Origin: Sphingobacterium cavernae
GTDB lineage: Bacteria > Bacteroidota > Bacteroidia > Sphingobacteriales > Sphingobacteriaceae
Reading direction: 5' to 3'
Length of the DNA stretch: 64,000 bases
Assembly (NCBI RefSeq): GCF_008520265.1
Contig: NZ_VIQM01000040.1
Coordinates: forward strand, 186,001 to 250,000
Part shown: in pieces, positions 9,354 to 18,967 of the stretch
How the letters are laid out: each line of letters begins with the position of its first letter
Numbering within the stretch: position 1 is the stretch's first letter
The notes under the pieces: generated by a model
What the model was told of the DNA's origin: nothing
Databases searched by the model: none
What the model saw: only the letters and a program-made list of their open reading frames with translations
Program-made: the position numbers and the translations under genes

Positions 9354-11138
9354 ATGAGTAACAAAGCAACAATCAAGGGCGGGGAGTTTGTAATTAAAGA
9401 AACTACATACACAGATATTTTCATTCCAGAGGAATTTGATGAAGAAGCACAGATGATTCGTCAGACTTGTTTGGATTTTTTGGATACGGAAGTACTAAAT
9501 AAGTTGGATCGCATTGATGCGCAAGAAGAGGGCTTGATGCAAAGTTTGCTGGATAAATCAGGTGAATTGGGCATGTTGGGCGTGTCCATTCCAGAGGAAT
9601 ACGGTGGCTTTGGTAAGAATTTCAACACATCGATGTTGGTTACGGATGCGGTAGGCGGTGGATTTTCTTTTGCGGTAGCGTTATCAGCCCATACGGGGAT
9701 AGGTACATTGCCAATTTTGTATTATGGAAATGAAGCGCAAAAGGCTAAATATATTCCAAAGTTGGGAACAGGCGAATGGAAAGCCGCTTATTGTTTGACA
9801 GAGCCAAACTCGGGCTCCGATGCGAACTCAGGTCGTACTTCTGCGAAGTTGAATGCAGAAGGGACACATTATTTGATAAATGGTCAAAAAATGTGGATCA
9901 CAAACGGTGGATTTGCAGATGTTTTCATTGTTTTCGCCAAAATTGATGACGATAAAAATCTAACTGCTTTCATTGTAGAAAAAGATTTTGGTGGTATCAC
10001 TATGAACCCAGAAGAGCATAAATTGGGTATCAAAGGATCGTCGACACGTCAAGTGTTTTTTAACGACTGCCCTGTTCCGGTCGAAAATATGCTTTCGGAG
10101 CGCGAAAATGGATTCAAAATCGCTGTGAATATTCTAAACATTGGGCGTATCAAATTGGGTGCTGCTACGATTGGTTCTGCACGTGCAGTTATTTCTCGCG
10201 CGGTGAACTATGCAAATGAGCGTGTGCAGTTTAATTTACCGATTTCCAAATTTGGTGCTATTCGTTACAAATTAGCTGAAATGGCAATACGACTTTTTGC
10301 TACTGAATCTGCCACGTATCGCGCTGGACAAAACATCGATGATGCATACGATGCATTAGTCGCAGGGGGAATGGATGAAGCAAAAGCTAAATTAAAATCT
10401 GTAGAACAATTTGCTATTGAGTGTGCGATTATCAAAGTTTGGTGCTCGGAAATGTTGGATTATGTGGTGGATGAAGGCGTTCAAATCTATGGCGGAATGG
10501 GGTATTCTGCTGAAGCACCGATGGAAAGAGCGTATCGCGATTCACGTATTAACAGAATTTTTGAAGGTACGAATGAAGTAAACCGTTTGTTGGTGGTTGA
10601 TATGTTGTTGAAACGTGCGATGAAAGGCGAGTTAGACTTACTGGGACCTGCGCAAGCGGTGGCTGGTGAATTGCTGTCTATTCCAGATTTTGGTGAAGAA
10701 GATGAAACACCTTTTGCAGCGGAGAAAAAAGTCATCGCTAATCTTAAAAAAGCAGGTTTGTTGGTGGCAGGTGCTGCGGTTCAAAAATTGATGATGTCGT
10801 TGTCGAAAGAACAAGAGATCTTAATGAATATAGCGGATATTATCGGTTACGTGTATGTTGCAGAATCTGTGCTATTACGTGCGGAAAAATTATACCATAC
10901 AAAAGGGGACAAAGCAGCCGCTCTTGCAACGGACATGGCTCGTGTATATTTATACACTACAATTGATAAGGTTAATGTGGCTGCGAAAGAAGCCTTGTAT
11001 TCTTTTGGAGAAGGTGATGAATTGAATATGATGCTTGTAGGTATTCGTCGTTTTACTAAAGCTCAACCTTTCAACGTGAAGGATGCCCGTCAACGTATTG
11101 CACGAAAATTAATAGAAGAAAATAAGTATTGTTTTTAA
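9354..11138 (+). CDS. fadE: Acyl-CoA dehydrogenase, FadE/YusJ type
   Basis: At 594 residues it is longer than the usual 380-residue enzymes and matches the FadE class with a C-terminal extension. It catalyses FAD-dependent alpha,beta-dehydrogenation of acyl-CoA, the first step of the cycle. Recognisable elements are the N-terminal helical domain, the FAD/substrate segment AAYCLTEPNSGSDA and KMWITNGGFADVF in the beta domain. YGGMGYSAEAPMERAYRDSR followed by FEGTNEVNRLLV lies in the second helical domain. Residues from about 420 on form the extra helical domain. It is last in the marR-fadN-IVP-fadA-fadE unit and is followed by a strong terminator. The electron acceptor (ETF) is not encoded nearby. 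Confidence 0.92.
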   Translation: MSNKATIKGGEFVIKETTYTDIFIPEEFDEEAQMIRQTCLDFLDTEVLNKLDRIDAQEEGLMQSLLDKSGELGMLGVSIPEEYGGFGKNFNTSMLVTDAVGGGFSFAVALSAHTGIGTLPILYYGNEAQKAKYIPKLGTGEWKAAYCLTEPNSGSDANSGRTSAKLNAEGTHYLINGQKMWITNGGFADVFIVFAKIDDDKNLTAFIVEKDFGGITMNPEEHKLGIKGSSTRQVFFNDCPVPVENMLSERENGFKIAVNILNIGRIKLGAATIGSARAVISRAVNYANERVQFNLPISKFGAIRYKLAEMAIRLFATESATYRAGQNIDDAYDALVAGGMDEAKAKLKSVEQFAIECAIIKVWCSEMLDYVVDEGVQIYGGMGYSAEAPMERAYRDSRINRIFEGTNEVNRLLVVDMLLKRAMKGELDLLGPAQAVAGELLSIPDFGEEDETPFAAEKKVIANLKKAGLLVAGAAVQKLMMSLSKEQEILMNIADIIGYVYVAESVLLRAEKLYHTKGDKAAALATDMARVYLYTTIDKVNVAAKEALYSFGEGDELNMMLVGIRRFTKAQPFNVKDARQRIARKLIEENKYCF

Positions 11139-11168
11139 ATAACAGTTTTAATTAAGTTGATTGATTTT

Positions 11169-11194
11169 AGCCCGCTTCTTAGCGGGCTTTTTTT
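11169..11194 (+). terminator. Intrinsic terminator of the fad operon
   Basis: AGCCCGC (11169-11175) pairs with GCGGGCT (11182-11188) across a 6-nt loop and is followed by a run of T. It lies about 30 nt after the fadE stop. Confidence 0.9.
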
Positions 11195-11342
11195 GTGCTA
11201 ATAATTCTACATACGGATTAAATTATGGTTATTAAAATATTATTCTAGTTAATTTTAAAAAATTATATTATTGATATTCAGTTTTTTAAATAATAAAGTA
11301 TATAAAATCTATAAAATTAGTAGACATTATATTTTTTGTTTT

Positions 11343-11350
11343 TATATTTG
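11343..11350 (+). promoter_or_regulatory. Candidate promoter of the leader / TonB receptor / TauE unit
   Basis: TATATTTG is an exact TAnnTTTG match. Initiation would be near 11355, followed at once by a 6-bp hairpin (TCTCAT at 11360-11365 with ATGAGA). The leader to the receptor ATG at 11642 would be close to 290 nt, far longer than others in this window. No good -33 element is seen. Confidence 0.5.
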
Positions 11351-11417
11351 CATCGTTATCTCATTCATTATGAGAGCAAAGATGGAATTAATCAACCTTA
11401 ATATTAAACTTTTGAGA

Positions 11418-11516
11418 ATGAATCAATTTTACAAATTACTAAAAACAGATCTGATAGCGCGGACTACACTTATTAAACAAAATCTTTTGCGTGGGAACAT
11501 GCGAATGTGCAGATAG
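11418..11516 (+). CDS. Putative regulatory leader peptide ending MRMCR
   Basis: This 32-codon ORF begins MNQFYKLLK and ends with the basic, Met/Cys-containing tail LLRGNMRMCR before TAG at 11514-11516. The frame is open further upstream; ATG 11382 (44 aa) and ATG 11370 (48 aa) are alternative starts within the predicted transcript. Its stop lies six bases before the first of two competing hairpins. This is the arrangement of attenuators read by a translating ribosome. Downstream genes encode a TonB receptor and a TauE-type sulfur anion exporter, so cysteine, methionine or another sulfur compound is a natural candidate signal. I cannot confirm homologues from here. Coding status is inferred from position and tail composition. 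Confidence 0.5.
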   Translation: MNQFYKLLKTDLIARTTLIKQNLLRGNMRMCR

Positions 11517-11520
11517 TTTC

Positions 11521-11576
11521 TTTTCCCCTTATGTATATAGATAGGGGAAGTGTGAGGCTTCCCCTTGATTTTGTTA
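11521..11576 (+). promoter_or_regulatory. Three-segment RNA switch (competing hairpins) before the TonB receptor
   Basis: Segment A (TTCCCCT, 11523-11529) pairs with B (AGGGGAA, 11543-11549). B extended by one base (AGGGGAAG, 11543-11550) pairs with C (CTTCCCCT, 11558-11565) across a 7-nt loop. The B-C stem is followed by TGATTTTGTT and looks like a terminator. A-B would be the antiterminator because both use B. A and C are near-identical copies, so only one hairpin can form. The leader-peptide stop is six bases before A. Confidence 0.6.
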
Positions 11577-11641
11577 AATAATGAACAAGTTTTCGATTGG
11601 CATTGATACTTGTAATATTCACTACTAAACGATTTAAATTT

Positions 11642-14236
11642 ATGAATTATAAAGCTATTTATAGCATTTCCTTCGGATTATCTTTATTACTTGGAACTGC
11701 GGGCGCGGTACAAGCACAACAAAAAGATCCAAAACCTATTATTAATGCTTCGTTGGTTGGTACTGTGATTGATGCAGATACTAAAGAACCAATTTCAGGT
11801 GTCACCGTGCAATTGGATGCAGTGACTCACCAAGTTAGAACAGATAGAGACGGTAAATTTCAATTTGTTACTGGACAAAAATTACCTTTTACGGTTATCG
11901 TTTCTTACTTGGGCTATGAAACTCAAAAATTAGTTATCGAAACTTCTCCAGCTGTTATCGAATTAAAACAAAGCGTAAATTCTTTGGAGCAGGTTTTTGT
12001 AACTTCTCGTCGCCGTACAGAACAGATTCAAGATATTCCTATCCCAGTTTCATTAGTAAAAGCAAGCACTATAGAAGTTGCCGGAGCATTCAACGTAAGC
12101 CGTATTAAAGAGGTTATTCCTTCGGTACAATTGTATGCTTCCAACCCGCGTAATACAACTTTAAATATTCGTGGTCTTGGATCTACATACGGTTTGACAA
12201 ATGATGGTATCGACCCAGGTGTAGGTTTTTATTTGGATGGTGTGTATATAGCACGACCAGCAGCTACAGCGTTAGATTTCATTGATATCGAACAGATTGA
12301 AGTATTGCGTGGCCCTCAAGGAACATTGTTTGGAAAAAACACTACTTCTGGCGCTTTCAATATTACCTCAAGACTTCCTTCCTTCATTCCGGGAGCTAAT
12401 TTTGAAGTAAGTTATGGTAATTACGGTTATGTACAAGGTAAAGCTTCAATTACAGGACCTCTTGTAAAGGATAAGTTAGCGGCAAGAGTTTCATTTTCTG
12501 GTACACAACGTGATGGACTATTTTACAATGTGCATACAGATCGTCAAATTAATGATATTAGCAATTTGGGACTACGTGGACAATTGTTGTATACGCCAAC
12601 AGAAAACTTGAAAGTTACGTTGACGGGTGATCGAACTATTCAAAAGCCAGATGGATATGGTTGGGCAGTTGCTGGTGTAGTGAAAAATCAGCGTTCAGAA
12701 TATAGACAGTTTAATAAGATTATTGAAGATTTGGGTTATGAAATCCCTTATAAAAGTGCATTCGAACGTAAAGTTGATTTAGATACGCGATCAAAGGCAG
12801 ATAACGAATTGGGGGGCGCTTCATTAAATTTTGACTATAAAATTGGTAATGGAACTCTAACATCTACTTCGGCTTGGAGATATTGGAAATGGGTACCATT
12901 GAATGATAGAGATTATTTGGGTATTCCAGTTTACACCATTTCATCAGGAACTTCGAAGCATGACCAATGGTCCCAAGAATTCAGATATTCTGGTAATATC
13001 AATGAAAAAATTAGTGGTGTTGTCGGTGTGTTTGGATTGTGGCAAGATTTACGTACCGACCCAGTACATACAGAAGAGGCGGGTGACGCATTATGGCGCT
13101 TTCAGCAAAATAATGCTACGGCTACACAATGGGGACCTGGTTTGATTGATAAAGTAGGTATTCGTACAAAATATGGTATTAAGAGTACAAGTTTAGCAGT
13201 ATTCGGTCAGCTAGATTGGGTTATTACGGACAAAATTCACGTATTGCCAGGTATTCGCTACAATTATGACAAAAAAGTAGCTAACTATGACCGTACTAAA
13301 TATATCGAGAATACTATCAAATATACGGATGCACAATTAGCTGCTGTAAACAGCATATATTCTAATCAACAATTTGATGTCGATGCGGATGCAGGTAATT
13401 TGTCTGGACAATTGTCTTTACAATATAAATTTAACCTGAATTACAATACTTTCGTCACTTATTCTAAATCTTATAAGCCAATTGGTATCAACGTAGGTGG
13501 TCTGCCCGTTATTGATGGTAAAGTAGCGACAGAATTAGCAGAGGTAAAACCAGAATCTGTCAATCACTACGAATTTGGGGTAAAAACAAATCCAATTCAG
13601 AATGCATTCTTGAATTTAACAATTTTCCAAACAAGTATTAAAGATTACCAAACTCAAGTGCAAACGCCAGATCCAGGTGTAAATAGAGGATATCTAGCCA
13701 ATGCGGAGAAAGTAAGTGTGAAAGGTTTGGAATTGGATGGAAGTATTAAACTCAGCAATTTGTTACGAGTGAACGCAGCGTTTGCTTATACAGATGGTAA
13801 ATACGATTCATTTACTAATGCGCCAGTTCCATTGGAAGAAGTCGGTGGAGCACAAGCATTCAAAGATGTATCTGGCGGTCAGCTACCGGGTATTTCAAAA
13901 TATTCGTGGACTATCGCTCCTGAATTAACTAAAAAAGGTAATTTCTTGAGTCTACAAGGTACTTATTTCTTAGGTGTGGATGCTTTCTATCGTTCTAAAT
14001 TCTCGTCCAGTTCTTCTCCATCAGCACATTTGAATATTGATGCATATACTTTGTTGAATGGACGTGTTGGTTTCCGTGCGAGCAATGGATTATCTGTAAT
14101 TGTTTGGAGCAGAAATTTAACAAACAAAGATTACTATGAGCAACTATTGGCAGCTCCAGGAAATTTTGGTCAGTATGCAGGTGTAGTAGGAGATCCACTT
14201 ACTTACGGTGTGACTTTAAGATATAATTTGAGATAA
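11642..14236 (+). CDS. TonB-dependent receptor with carboxypeptidase-like N-terminal domain
   Basis: The protein has 864 residues from ATG 11642; the frame runs upstream to 11597, but those codons precede a clear signal peptide (MNYKAIYSISFGLSLLL, cleavage after VQA about residue 25). Order: carboxypeptidase-regulatory-like domain (about 35-105, GTVIDADTKEPISGVTV) and plug (about 115-235). The plug carries QDIPIPVSLVKA, LNIRGLGS and IEQIEVLRGPQGTLFGKNT. A 22-strand-type barrel follows, ending in VTLRYNLR with the terminal aromatic-x-x pattern. It imports an unidentified ligand across the outer membrane. The leader switch and adjacent TauE gene suggest a sulfur-containing ligand (inference). 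Confidence 0.9.
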   Translation: MNYKAIYSISFGLSLLLGTAGAVQAQQKDPKPIINASLVGTVIDADTKEPISGVTVQLDAVTHQVRTDRDGKFQFVTGQKLPFTVIVSYLGYETQKLVIETSPAVIELKQSVNSLEQVFVTSRRRTEQIQDIPIPVSLVKASTIEVAGAFNVSRIKEVIPSVQLYASNPRNTTLNIRGLGSTYGLTNDGIDPGVGFYLDGVYIARPAATALDFIDIEQIEVLRGPQGTLFGKNTTSGAFNITSRLPSFIPGANFEVSYGNYGYVQGKASITGPLVKDKLAARVSFSGTQRDGLFYNVHTDRQINDISNLGLRGQLLYTPTENLKVTLTGDRTIQKPDGYGWAVAGVVKNQRSEYRQFNKIIEDLGYEIPYKSAFERKVDLDTRSKADNELGGASLNFDYKIGNGTLTSTSAWRYWKWVPLNDRDYLGIPVYTISSGTSKHDQWSQEFRYSGNINEKISGVVGVFGLWQDLRTDPVHTEEAGDALWRFQQNNATATQWGPGLIDKVGIRTKYGIKSTSLAVFGQLDWVITDKIHVLPGIRYNYDKKVANYDRTKYIENTIKYTDAQLAAVNSIYSNQQFDVDADAGNLSGQLSLQYKFNLNYNTFVTYSKSYKPIGINVGGLPVIDGKVATELAEVKPESVNHYEFGVKTNPIQNAFLNLTIFQTSIKDYQTQVQTPDPGVNRGYLANAEKVSVKGLELDGSIKLSNLLRVNAAFAYTDGKYDSFTNAPVPLEEVGGAQAFKDVSGGQLPGISKYSWTIAPELTKKGNFLSLQGTYFLGVDAFYRSKFSSSSSPSAHLNIDAYTLLNGRVGFRASNGLSVIVWSRNLTNKDYYEQLLAAPGNFGQYAGVVGDPLTYGVTLRYNLR

Positions 14237-14273: not shown

Positions 14274-15176
14274 ATGAGTAATAAAACACAAGCTATAGAA
14301 ATACTCACAGTTGCAAATAAGAAAAAACTATTATCGCCAATTGTAGGATTTATATTGTTACTAAAAGTTGTAATCATATCCTATTTTGGTTATTTGATTA
14401 CACAAGCTGTACATAACAATACAGTAGATTTTGATACCACATTCTTTTTGTTCATTGTGGCAGGATTCTTTGCACAATTGATTGATGGAGCTTTAGGAAT
14501 GGCATATGGTGTTAGTTGTACAACATTATTACTCAGTCTAGGTATACCACCTAAATTGGCATCAGCCAGTGTACATACATCAGAGATATTTACAACAGGT
14601 GTTTCAGGCTTGTCACATATCCGATTCAATAATTTGGATAAGAAATTATTTTACAAGATTGTATTTACAGGAGTTCTAGGAGCTGGATTGGGAGCATATC
14701 TCTTGTCCGATGTATTGGATGGAGGTGTCATAAAGCCCTATATTTCTGCGTATTTAATCTTTTTAGGAGGCTATTTGATTTTTAAAGCAGTACGCAAGAA
14801 AGGTGATGCAAAGCCAAAAACAAAGTATGCACCATTTCTAGCTTTATTTGGTGGATTGTTTGATGCGATTGGCGGAGGTGGTTGGGGACCCATTGTTACT
14901 TCAAACTTATTGAGTCAAGGTCACAATCCCCGTAAAACAATTGGCACTGTGAATACGGCAGAATTTTTTGTAACCTATTTTGCAACCATTGTGTTCATCT
15001 TCATTTTAGGAGTACAGCATTTGGATATTGTACTGGGCTTAGTGATAGGAGGAGTAATCGCAGCACCTATCGGAGCTTATGTAGCATCAAAAGTAAATCC
15101 CAAAGTTTTATTAATATTAGTTGGTGTCTTAGTAGTACTTACTTCTGGGTATAGTCTATTTAGTTTTTTAAAATAA
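14274..15176 (+). CDS. TauE/SafE family sulfite/sulfonate exporter
   Basis: The 300-residue inner-membrane protein has about eight hydrophobic segments. It carries the two internal-repeat motifs of the family, QLIDGALGMAYGVS in the first half and GLFDAIGGGGWGPI in the second. Family members move small sulfur oxyanions or sulfonates, generally outward; direction and substrate here are not proven. The gene starts 37 nt after the TonB receptor stop and ends at a strong terminator, so these two genes form the core unit downstream of the leader switch. Confidence 0.9.
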   Translation: MSNKTQAIEILTVANKKKLLSPIVGFILLLKVVIISYFGYLITQAVHNNTVDFDTTFFLFIVAGFFAQLIDGALGMAYGVSCTTLLLSLGIPPKLASASVHTSEIFTTGVSGLSHIRFNNLDKKLFYKIVFTGVLGAGLGAYLLSDVLDGGVIKPYISAYLIFLGGYLIFKAVRKKGDAKPKTKYAPFLALFGGLFDAIGGGGWGPIVTSNLLSQGHNPRKTIGTVNTAEFFVTYFATIVFIFILGVQHLDIVLGLVIGGVIAAPIGAYVASKVNPKVLLILVGVLVVLTSGYSLFSFLK

Positions 15177-15344: not shown

Positions 15345-16778
15345 TTGACAAAATACGACGCAATAATAGTAGGTTCTGGACCGAATGGTTTTGCCGCCGC
15401 AATTACATTGCAGCAGCAAGGTCTTTCTACGCTTATCATAGAAGGAGCGGATACCATTGGTGGGGGAATGCGGACGAAAGAATTAACCTTACCAGGATTT
15501 AAGCATGACGTTTGTTCAGCTATACATCCTATGGCAATGGCGTCGTCTTTTATGCGTTCTATTCCATTAGCAGATTATGGATTGTCTTTCGAATATGCAA
15601 AATATGAAGCTGCACATCCGTTAATTGGCGAAGAAGGTTCTGTGTTGAATCGTGATTTACACGAGACGATTAGGGAGTTGGGGGAGGACGGCGAATACTA
15701 CAGAAGCTTGATAGAACCAGTCGTTAACAATTGGGAAAAACTGGCTAAAGATACGATGGGGCCATTGGGATTACCCAAATTCCCAATTAATCTTGCAACT
15801 TTTGGTTTACATGCGATACAACCTGCTTCATGGCTTGCTAAACATTTCAAAACAGAGAAGGCGAAAGCGCTATGGGCTGGAATGGCAGCGCATGGTATTC
15901 AACCACTAGATAATTTCACTACTTCCGCTATTGGGTTGGTGCTTATGGGAGTTGGGCATCGCTATGGTTGGGCGATACCGACAGGAGGTTCTCAGTCTAT
16001 TGCAAATGCTTTAGAAGCGTATTATTTATCCTTGGGTGGAAAAATTCAGACTGGATTTTGGCTAAAAAATAGATTTGATCTTCCAGAACATAAAGTGTTA
16101 TTGTTGGATTTGACACCGAAGCAATTGTTAAATATTGAAGGTTTAGGTTTTACACCTTTCTATGCGAAGCAGTTGCAACGATACAAACAAGGAATGGGCG
16201 TGTTCAAAATCGATTGGGCGCTTTCTGAAGAAACTCCATTTACGGATTTGCGTGCTCGTCAAGCGGCAACAATACATATTGGTGGTACATTCAATGATAT
16301 AGCATTGTCTGAAGAAGATGGACATCGAGGGAAAATAACGGATAAACCTTTCGTGCTTTTCACGCAACAAAGTCAATTTGATAAATCCCGAGCGCCAGCA
16401 GGTAAGCATACGGGCTGGGCATATTGCCACGTACCAAATGGTTCAACGGTTGATTATACCGATATTATAGAAAATCAAATAGAGCGTTTTGCGCCAGGAT
16501 TTAAAGAAACTATTCTAGCAAGATATACATTTAGTCCGCAGCAAATGGAAGCGTACAATCCAAATTACATAGGTGGAGATATCAATGGCGGAATCATGGA
16601 TGTTTCGCAGTTGTATACACGTCCGACCATTTCTTTGAATCCACATCGCACATCCAATAAGTCAGTTTACATCTGTTCATCTGCTACACCTCCTGGAGGA
16701 GGAGTACATGGAATGTGTGGATTTCATGCAGCTCGTATTGCCTTAAAAGATCATTTCAACATAAAAGTAAATTTATAA
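15345..16778 (+). CDS. Phytoene-dehydrogenase-like FAD/NAD(P)-dependent oxidoreductase
   Basis: The 477-residue protein opens with a dinucleotide-binding motif (DAIIVGSGPNGFAAAI). A GGGMRTKELTLPGF segment follows. The C-terminal FAD-binding signature is YICSSATPPGGGVHGMCG, as in the COG1233 phytoene desaturase/carotenoid isomerase group. No carotenoid biosynthesis gene is adjacent, so the substrate is unknown. The start must be TTG at 15345: an in-frame stop lies at 15333-15335 and no ATG or GTG precedes the Rossmann motif. Its stop codon shares one base with the start of the next gene (TAATG), which indicates translational coupling. Confidence 0.85.
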   Translation: MTKYDAIIVGSGPNGFAAAITLQQQGLSTLIIEGADTIGGGMRTKELTLPGFKHDVCSAIHPMAMASSFMRSIPLADYGLSFEYAKYEAAHPLIGEEGSVLNRDLHETIRELGEDGEYYRSLIEPVVNNWEKLAKDTMGPLGLPKFPINLATFGLHAIQPASWLAKHFKTEKAKALWAGMAAHGIQPLDNFTTSAIGLVLMGVGHRYGWAIPTGGSQSIANALEAYYLSLGGKIQTGFWLKNRFDLPEHKVLLLDLTPKQLLNIEGLGFTPFYAKQLQRYKQGMGVFKIDWALSEETPFTDLRARQAATIHIGGTFNDIALSEEDGHRGKITDKPFVLFTQQSQFDKSRAPAGKHTGWAYCHVPNGSTVDYTDIIENQIERFAPGFKETILARYTFSPQQMEAYNPNYIGGDINGGIMDVSQLYTRPTISLNPHRTSNKSVYICSSATPPGGGVHGMCGFHAARIALKDHFNIKVNL

Positions 16779-17713: not shown

Positions 17714-18967
17714 ATGTCTACAAAAAGAATAGCATTCACCGAAGATTGGGTAGTGGTGATTTTGGGATTGGGATTAGTTCTTTTAGCTTTATTAGGTCTT
17801 ATTATTCCTAAACCAAGTTTTAGCTGGGAATCTACTTCGGAATTAACAGATAAAGTTCTTTCAATTTCTAATCTCAGTAAAATTGGAAGTCAATTTATTA
17901 CCATTTATATTACGGCTATTGTAGGAGCTTTATTATTGAATAAATCCATAAAATCTTTACTTATCGTATTTCCTTCTGTTTTTATTCTGACCATTATTGC
18001 TTTAATTCTGGCTGGGAATTCCACTGTCAAAGAGTATAATTTGGAAGCCGTGATTTTTGCATTAGGTATTGGATTGCTTATCAGCAATATATTTACCTTG
18101 CCAGAATGGTTCAAAAATGCATTAAGTACGGAATTGTATGTTAAAATAGGTCTAGTTCTTTTGGGGACGACTGTAATTTTTGGTGATATATTAAAAGCAG
18201 GTTCTTTAGGATTGATACAAGCTTTGGTAGTAGTTATTTCGGTATGGTATTTTGCATTTTGGCTGTGCAAAAAGCTCAAAATAGATAAAGAAATGTCGCT
18301 GATGTTAGCCAGTGCAGTTTCAATTTGTGGTGTTTCTGCAGCTATCGCTACTTCGGGAGCGATCAAAGGTGACAGCAAAAAATTGTCCTATGTAATTTCG
18401 TTGGTGTTGATTACGGCTATACCGATGATGATTTTTATGCCGTACATGGCAGAATGGATGGGCTTATCGCAAGAAGTTACAGGAGCTTGGTTGGGCGGTT
18501 CTATCGATACAACAGGTGCCGTGGTGGCATCAGGTTCTTTGGTCGGTGAAGAAGCATTAAAGATCAGTACAATTGTGAAATTTTCCCAAAATGTATTGCT
18601 TGGAATTGCCGCTTTTGCGATTAGTATCTACTGGACTTATTCCAAATCCGTGGATGATGAAACGAAAAAGGAAAAACCAACGTTGAAAATCATCTGGGAG
18701 CGCTTCCCAAAATTCGTAATCGGTTTTGTGTTTGCTTCGTTACTTTTCTCGTTCGTTATCTCTCCAGAGACCAATGCTTTAGTCAAAGAAAGTCTAAAAA
18801 GCTTACAAAGCCTTTGGTTTGTGTTAGCTTTTACTTCTATTGGATTAGAAACCAATTTCAAAGATCTTTTTCAACACAGTAATAAAAAGCCTTTATACGC
18901 ATTTTTGATTGCACAGACATTTAATATTATCGTGACATTGGTGATTGCGATGGTTTTATTTAGATAA
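17714..18967 (+). CDS. YeiH-family putative sulfate exporter (UPF0324)
   Basis: The 417-residue polytopic inner-membrane protein has about ten hydrophobic segments. Family-typical features are ALGIGLLISNIF, a CGVSAAIATSGAIKGD segment and GAWLGGSIDTTGAVVASG, with SFTSIGLETNF-like residues near the end (LAFTSIGLETNFKDLF). The sulfate-export annotation of this family is tentative. It is consistent with a second sulfur-anion transporter (TauE type) 2.5 kb upstream. It is the last of three closely packed genes, and no terminator is visible before the sigma-factor gene 48 nt downstream. Confidence 0.87.
   Translation: MSTKRIAFTEDWVVVILGLGLVLLALLGLIIPKPSFSWESTSELTDKVLSISNLSKIGSQFITIYITAIVGALLLNKSIKSLLIVFPSVFILTIIALILAGNSTVKEYNLEAVIFALGIGLLISNIFTLPEWFKNALSTELYVKIGLVLLGTTVIFGDILKAGSLGLIQALVVVISVWYFAFWLCKKLKIDKEMSLMLASAVSICGVSAAIATSGAIKGDSKKLSYVISLVLITAIPMMIFMPYMAEWMGLSQEVTGAWLGGSIDTTGAVVASGSLVGEEALKISTIVKFSQNVLLGIAAFAISIYWTYSKSVDDETKKEKPTLKIIWERFPKFVIGFVFASLLFSFVISPETNALVKESLKSLQSLWFVLAFTSIGLETNFKDLFQHSNKKPLYAFLIAQTFNIIVTLVIAMVLFR

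Follow-up and report, generated by a model that had tools for sequence, protein, structure and literature searches.

The TonB-dependent receptor gene that begins at position 11642 of the window (the whole 64,000-nucleotide stretch of DNA analysed here) is separated from its promoter by a long leader holding a short reading frame and several hairpins, and the locus raises the question of whether, and through what signal, this leader governs the genes behind it. The original prediction placed roughly 290 nt between a TAnnTTTG box and the receptor ATG; read directly, the distance from the end of the -7 box, which we take to represent the Bacteroidota TAnnTTTG consensus, to the ATG is about 291 nt. 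We consider it fairly probable that the leader is a ribosome-mediated attenuator, reading Cys-tRNA and probably Met-tRNA as well, and that it controls an organosulfur-uptake operon. The locus is made up of the following features.

11308-11324, plus strand: operator-like inverted repeat TCTATAAAATTAGTAGA, read directly
11343-11350, plus strand: -7 promoter box TATATTTG, read directly, with a presumed transcription start site
11418-11516, plus strand: leader peptide ORF MNQFYKLLKTDLIARTTLIKQNLLRGNMRMCR, then stop (ATG at 11418, TAG at 11514-11516), from the reading frame and relatives
11499-11510, plus strand: leader tail ATG CGA ATG TGC (M-R-M-C), the presumed sensing codons
11520-11529, plus strand: segment A, CTTTTCCCCT, 5' arm of the putative antiterminator
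11543-11550, plus strand: segment B, AGGGGAAG
11558-11575, plus strand: segment C, CTTCCCCT (11558-11565), followed by a U-rich tail, TGATTTTGTT; B-C is a terminator-like hairpin
11585-11613, plus strand: hairpin H2, with outer stem ACAAGT/ACTTGT, inner stem CGAU/AUUG and loop UGGC
11642-14236, plus strand: TonB-dependent receptor (PF07715, PF00593, PF13715)
14274-15176, plus strand: TauE/SafE exporter (PF01925)
15345-16778, plus strand: FAD/NAD-binding oxidoreductase; a similar gene, by eye, lies in the sulfatase cluster of relative G035
17714-18967, plus strand: PF03601 membrane protein, presumably YeiH-type; a similar gene, by eye, lies in the same G035 cluster

By itself a 32-codon ORF is unremarkable, and both ORF and hairpins might have arisen by chance, a reading that is contradicted by the recurrence of the arrangement in related genomes. 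A pattern combining the leader tail with a downstream box (ATGCGAATGTG N60-90 TTGGCGTTGGCAC) occurs in 29 of 93 genomes of the genus, at least one of the matching places (G022:C234) not resembling a leader, and its reversed control in 0 of 93; the own genome is missing among the 29 because its copy of hairpin H, the element downstream of B-C, diverges. With a similar pattern, 37 stretches came from named genomes, 35 of them Sphingobacterium, one Parapedobacter and one a Sphingobacteriaceae bacterium, and a search with the leader DNA over 59 relatives matched 17 genomes, the own one included, some of the weakest matches being probably due to chance. The frame itself carries a coding signature: of the 74 CGAATG sites that precede the box, a few of which overlap inside one leader, 69 lie in an open peptide frame that offers an ATG 10 or more codons upstream, as against 7 and 2 for the other two frames. 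Together with the unit statistics and the tail count given below, these figures leave chance a negligible probability. The short ORF ending in NMRMCR that had been predicted is thus borne out both by its coding signature and by a tail conserved among relatives and, judged by this comparison, the leader ORF, which closes with Met and Cys codons, belongs to a real, conserved family. An in-frame ATG at 11370 would lengthen the window peptide to 48 aa; the start at 11418 is favoured because the median length of 59 leader units, each taken from its most upstream ATG, is 32 aa.

Upstream of related receptors the leaders end in R-M-C, M-R-M-C, M-R-M-C-C-C or C-C-C-C. The residue after R-M in the 59 distinct units is Cys in 53, Arg in 2, a stop in 2, Ser in 1 and Pro in 1, a count biased by the fact that many loci were fetched with a pattern requiring TG after the ATG. 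Hence, the count that matters is that of the loci fetched with the H pattern only. These hold 33 distinct H2 sites (window included), of which 13 have an R-M-x leader within 140 nt, and x is Cys in 10, Arg in 2 and Ser in 1, so that the peptide tail is indeed conserved in related genomes. Among the remaining 20 sites, 8 show a short ORF that contains Cys and follows a TAnnTTTG box, under a loose rule applied with no control, and at 12 of the 33 no Cys leader was found. These 12 sites, and the 3 of 33 with R-M followed by another residue than Cys, count against an attenuator. Moreover, the leader of the nearest relative (L003) ends in MRMRR and 6 of the 59 leaders lack Cys after R-M, some stopping directly behind it, so Cys in the tail is, by this comparison, not indispensable. 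In a separate locus, L083, a leader ending in GCCC and a stop is followed by a tRNA-like sequence ahead of H.

The constancy of the residues around the Cys codon bears on what the ribosome might be responding to. The original prediction envisaged reversed polarity, in which the nascent chain, ...RMRM(C), would stall the ribosome when a sulfur metabolite is abundant, cover segment A and switch the operon off. It is in keeping with such arrest that M-R-M is retained where Cys has been lost (L003, L007, L029, L122), that many leaders carry a basic residue two before the CGA (R in 24 and K in 7 of 59), and that this Arg codon is constantly CGA, a codon used for 9.6% of the Arg residues encoded by 22 genes of the window. 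Six leaders from a second genus of the family (g25), preceding receptors that look alike by eye, end in SMRMCCCYA, SMRMCCCRA or SMRMRCCCA, and the Arg between the two Met is always CGA, even though the search did not demand it. The conserved M-R-M and constant CGA exceed what starvation sensing needs and thus speak against simple codon sensing. On the other hand, tails that consist of Cys runs or mix Met with Cys, found at homologous and at analogous sites, point to codon sensing rather than to a single arrest motif; in the same second genus, five leaders upstream of other genes finish with a run of Cys, for instance AGYCCCC.

The position of segment A weighs further against arrest. The three segments that had been predicted after the leader stop are present, with a closer spacing than the six bases claimed: segment A starts 3 nt, and its core TTTCCCCT 5 nt, past the stop. 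A ribosome covers roughly 12-13 nt past the first base of its A-site codon, a value from E. coli. By this footprint, a ribosome whose A site holds the Cys codon (11508-11510) would have its edge at about 11520-11521, just short of the pairing core of A, which begins at 11522; one with the stop codon there would reach to about 11526-11527 and cover segment A. A halt at Cys would therefore leave A free, since A begins outside the ribosome. The same geometry recurs in relatives: in 43 of 55 units, those with a duplex above threshold, A starts 15.0 nt (sd 4.1, mode 14) from the first base of the Cys codon, with an sd of 5.6 when measured from the stop, and it still lies 14-16 nt from the Cys codon where the leader tail is longer or its stop has been lost (L010, L014, L072). 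Because A would be outside a ribosome halted at Cys and under one positioned at the stop, the expected polarity is that of trp: starvation on, sufficiency off. Ligand-induced arrest is not needed to explain the leader, and we hold it to be unlikely.

In the scheme that we propose, in which the sensed signal, the direction of the response and the terminator role of B-C are all inferred, shortage of Cys or Met would halt the ribosome with the M-R-M-C codons in its A site and segment A free. Free A would pair with B as RNA polymerase emerges, B-C would be prevented and the receptor operon transcribed. The two Met codons lie one and three codons ahead of Cys, and shortage of Met-tRNA would likewise free A. 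When sulfur amino acids suffice, the ribosome would reach the stop and cover A, B-C would form and most transcripts would end or be blocked. Hairpin H and the putative operator would add further control to that of the attenuator.

The pairing on which this scheme depends was examined in the window and in relatives. In the window the A-B and B-C hairpins are mutually exclusive, as had been claimed, with energies of -10.6 kcal/mol for A-B (C not yet made) and -15.3 for B-C. At equilibrium, B pairs with C (0.92-0.99) at every ribosome position, even with A free; A-B would thus only be able to act kinetically. The 296-nt leader folds with a z of -2.47 against shuffles, 2 of 200 of which fold as low. 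Over window and relatives together, A-B pairing reaches p 0.05 or better against shuffled sequence in 16 of 55 units and is not clear in the other 39, the corresponding binomial value of 7e-9 assuming an independence that the units do not have. Long-range pairing of the leader codons at 11476-11484 with 11567-11575 was also considered and rejected: beyond the window it is seen only in the nearest relative.

The claim that B-C is a terminator fares differently in the window and elsewhere. The window hairpin satisfies a simple terminator rule (one that finds 5 sites in 4.3 kb on both strands, with 2.5 expected from shuffles), and weak support comes from relatives, since at least 5 T in the 8 nt after the B-C stem occur in 6 of 55 units (window included) and fewer in 49, by a somewhat harsh count, as the script admits pairing T into the stem. 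This scarcity of T is what would be expected if the sensor were the same but B-C were no terminator, leader translation governing instead the translation or stability of the receptor mRNA, or the access of Rho to it. Units of hairpin plus H that lack a leader and follow receptor stop codons point the same way; against it stand the terminator rule satisfied by the window hairpin and the observation that neither A-B nor B-C overlaps the receptor start. We regard this other output as a real possibility, if not the one to be expected. Given the few T behind B-C, the clear A-B pairing in 16 of 55 units, the Cys-less tails and the leaderless hairpins with H, the attenuator may terminate transcription in some relatives and in others act on translation, on the access of Rho or on the processing of the mRNA.

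Hairpin H, which like the operator, the M-R-M-C leaders of the second genus and the Cys/Met-rich leaders before cysH and cysC had been missed in the original prediction, combines a variable outer stem with an invariant loop, CRATTGGC(G/A)TTG. Over 86 distinct copies, unselected and read in one fixed register, 70.0% of the outer-stem cells pair against 51.6% when shuffled and 69 cells are changed on both sides against 29.1; none of 500 shuffles reaches either measure. A hand-picked set of 40 copies whose loop side measures 3 nt gives 94.7% paired cells, 34 double-sided changes against 9.6 in shuffles and a covariation of 0.296 against at most 0.090 when slid; two coarser measures do not rise above shuffles, with 4 double-change pairs where shuffles have 3.6 and 9 further pair types where they have 9.3. 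If the best of five loop sizes is allowed, 93 of 101 copies form 4 or more of their 5 pairs, compared with 49% of shuffled 3' arms. The distance to the gene is also kept: in 56 of 59 units, 44-51 nt separate the first base of the loop core from the first ATG downstream; in the window the receptor ATG is 48 nt from the H2 loop-side core (11594). A second copy of H often sits just behind the -7 box, ahead of the leader ORF; in the window only H2 is recognisable. In L005, H lies around 1357-1387 and 1587-1617.

Of 400 genomes of the order, 86, all from one family, contain the exact H pattern and 3 its reversed control; some matches in other genera have no stem (L090, L091, L093, L097, L105, L106), and these are single and, by eye, mostly gene-internal. 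No H was found beyond the family: a covariance model (E 0.05, strict filters) matched 1 of 198 genomes of the class, namely the own one, whose copy is in the model. Nor did Rfam return a match at the gathering score for window positions 11000-12000 and the loci of 5 relatives. A second mini-ORF, FSIGVGTC, was considered for this element and set aside, since species differ by 2 nt on the loop side, the start codons are not conserved and the outer stems covary; for these reasons we take H for an RNA element that does not code for a peptide. Two candidate partners of the loop were likewise rejected, pairing with 16S rRNA (the longest complement in the 16S locus is 7 nt, and shuffled loops average 7.35) and a perfectly complementary small RNA, of which none was seen. 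Upstream of a poly-Cys leader, L087 and L104 have a further H-like hairpin (ATTTTGGCGTTGG).

Ahead of the promoter, 48 of 69 sites have the inverted repeat TCTAyT-N4-rTAGA with its first base 34-35 nt from the -7 box, and in the window this distance is 35 nt. In the own genome, repeat plus promoter occur in 2 places, the window and one more, the latter probably by chance. We infer an operator role for the repeat, and likewise a regulatory function for H. Immediately ahead of the promoter, L087 and L104 show a GGGGAAT/ATTCCCC hairpin. The strong recurrence of H and operator, and the 12 of 33 H2 sites with H and no Cys leader, would also suit a leader that is a mere remnant, with operator and H alone regulating; frame and tail are nonetheless conserved over divergent leaders, and we think this reading improbable, even more so than peptide arrest. 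The two H copies with the same loop, the first near the presumed mRNA 5' end and ahead of the leader ORF, the second ahead of the receptor, might dock a trans-acting regulator of sulfur state, be it a protein, a small RNA or a metabolite. A single mRNA would then combine operator, Cys/Met-tRNA leader and repeated H in controlling organosulfate scavenging in the Sphingobacteriaceae, a proposal that we put forward tentatively, as somewhat short of an even chance. H is the most novel part of the locus, with no Rfam match and no description found, and its invariant loop calls for a partner.

The sulfur setting that had been proposed for the operon is upheld by relatives with clusters of SusC/D and sulfatase genes behind such leaders, whose targets are TonB receptors, SusD and sulfatases. 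In genome G010 genes for receptor, SusD and sulfatase stand behind the leader, which in locus L208 reads MKNYLTNPLKK...FRMRMCI up to its stop, and the A-B-C-H block stands before a sulfatase gene in two other species, with the leader ORF in one (L120) and without it in the other (L121, the sulfatase being assigned by eye). The neighbours in G035 are those of the window (acyl-CoA dehydrogenase, TauE, leader, receptor, oxidoreductase, epimerase and a PF03601-like protein), with TauE on the opposite side of the receptor. In this genome (G035:C6:8000-125000, L112-L117) the shared neighbours enclose about 100 kb in which several SusC/SusD-like pairs accompany about 20 genes that by eye, on their N-terminal motif, look like sulfatases; three of these were run against Pfam and all are PF00884, and TauE was confirmed. 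The window locus looks like a small form of a G035-type sulfatase cluster. Many receptors of the G035 cluster have their own H. Elsewhere, sulfatase genes with operator, A-B-C and H have lost the leader ORF (L013, L021), and an A-B-C-like hairpin with H, without leader ORF, directly follows a receptor stop codon and precedes the next gene in L022/L110 and L028/L037; both kinds of leaderless unit weigh against the attenuator.

Cys- and Met-rich leaders are also found elsewhere in the class. A search for PAPS reductase matched 68 of 99 genomes. In the 30 loci fetched, 12 short ORFs carry 3 or more Cys within their final 9 residues, compared with 2 when the sequence is reversed. Six of the 12, spread over four other families, lie directly upstream of cysH in 3 cases and of cysC-cysD-cysN in 3 (the cys genes were assigned by eye, apart from one cysH and one cysC that were checked with Pfam); in the other 24 loci no such leader was recognised within the fetched stretch, nor was a Cys leader found in the stretch read of the own cys operon. 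The cysH leaders, from three genomes of family f4, have the tails MCCCCCCC and MCCFCCCC, and the cysC-cysD-cysN leaders of f21, f44 and f38 have MMFCIMCCI, ICCMMCCN and MCCCMCIPL; the mixture of Met and Cys codons in these tails recalls M-R-M-C. These two groups bear in opposite directions on the output of the window leader. The cysC leaders are followed by hairpins with long T tracts, which argues against B-C serving in something other than termination, whereas in the cysH leaders (L177, L178, L184) the poly-Cys codons can pair with the cysH start region over 10, 7 and 8 nt, which suggests translational attenuation in that family and favours such an output. A crude class-wide pattern of promoter plus TGTTGTTGTT gave 14 matches in 12 of 395 genomes and 14 for the reversed control, that is, no enrichment; two of the matches (L168, L169) are clear Cys leaders.

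If this reading is true, members of the phylum control sulfate assimilation (cysC, cysH) through Cys/Met-rich leader peptides and hold organosulfate scavenging, by TonB receptors and sulfatases, under such peptides too, which would provide a simple genetic handle on sulfatase clusters. Leader-peptide attenuation has been inferred in Flavobacterium psychrophilum (PMC9723704) and Bacteroides thetaiotaomicron (PMC7366714), where, in the portions of these papers drawn on here, the leaders are assigned to a hypothetical gene or, in general terms, to operons for amino-acid biosynthesis, and cysteine leaders and sulfur uptake go unmentioned in the main text; the supplementary tables may differ. Among the matches listed in the literature searched, supplements aside, there was no report of cysteine-sensing leaders in Bacteroidota.

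The suggestion that the leader is a Bacteroidota counterpart of Cys leader peptides is supported by a Cys codon (one in the window) at the end of a short ORF before sulfur genes. Cys leader peptides of Actinobacteria were reportedly described by Canestrari in 2020. The likeness to these consists of a short ORF with Cys codons near its stop before sulfur genes. In mycobacteria, leaders have been described in which Cys codons form runs and terminator hairpins are not conserved (Seliverstov 2005, PMC1262725). The window family differs in usually having one Cys, set in M-R-M-C, and in its A-B-C region, its H and its receptor and sulfatase targets. Independent origin is as likely as common ancestry, the peptides being too short to compare. 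Attenuators of the trp type combine a leader peptide, a stop just before the antiterminator arm and alternative hairpins, and are switched on by starvation. Unlike them, the window family has a single or few sensing codons, few T after the hairpin in most units and no segment 1. It shares with them a short leader ORF that, to judge from coding frame and tail, would carry the codons of the sensed amino acids near its end, a stop before the putative antiterminator arm, in the window alternative hairpins and, as proposed here, activation by starvation.
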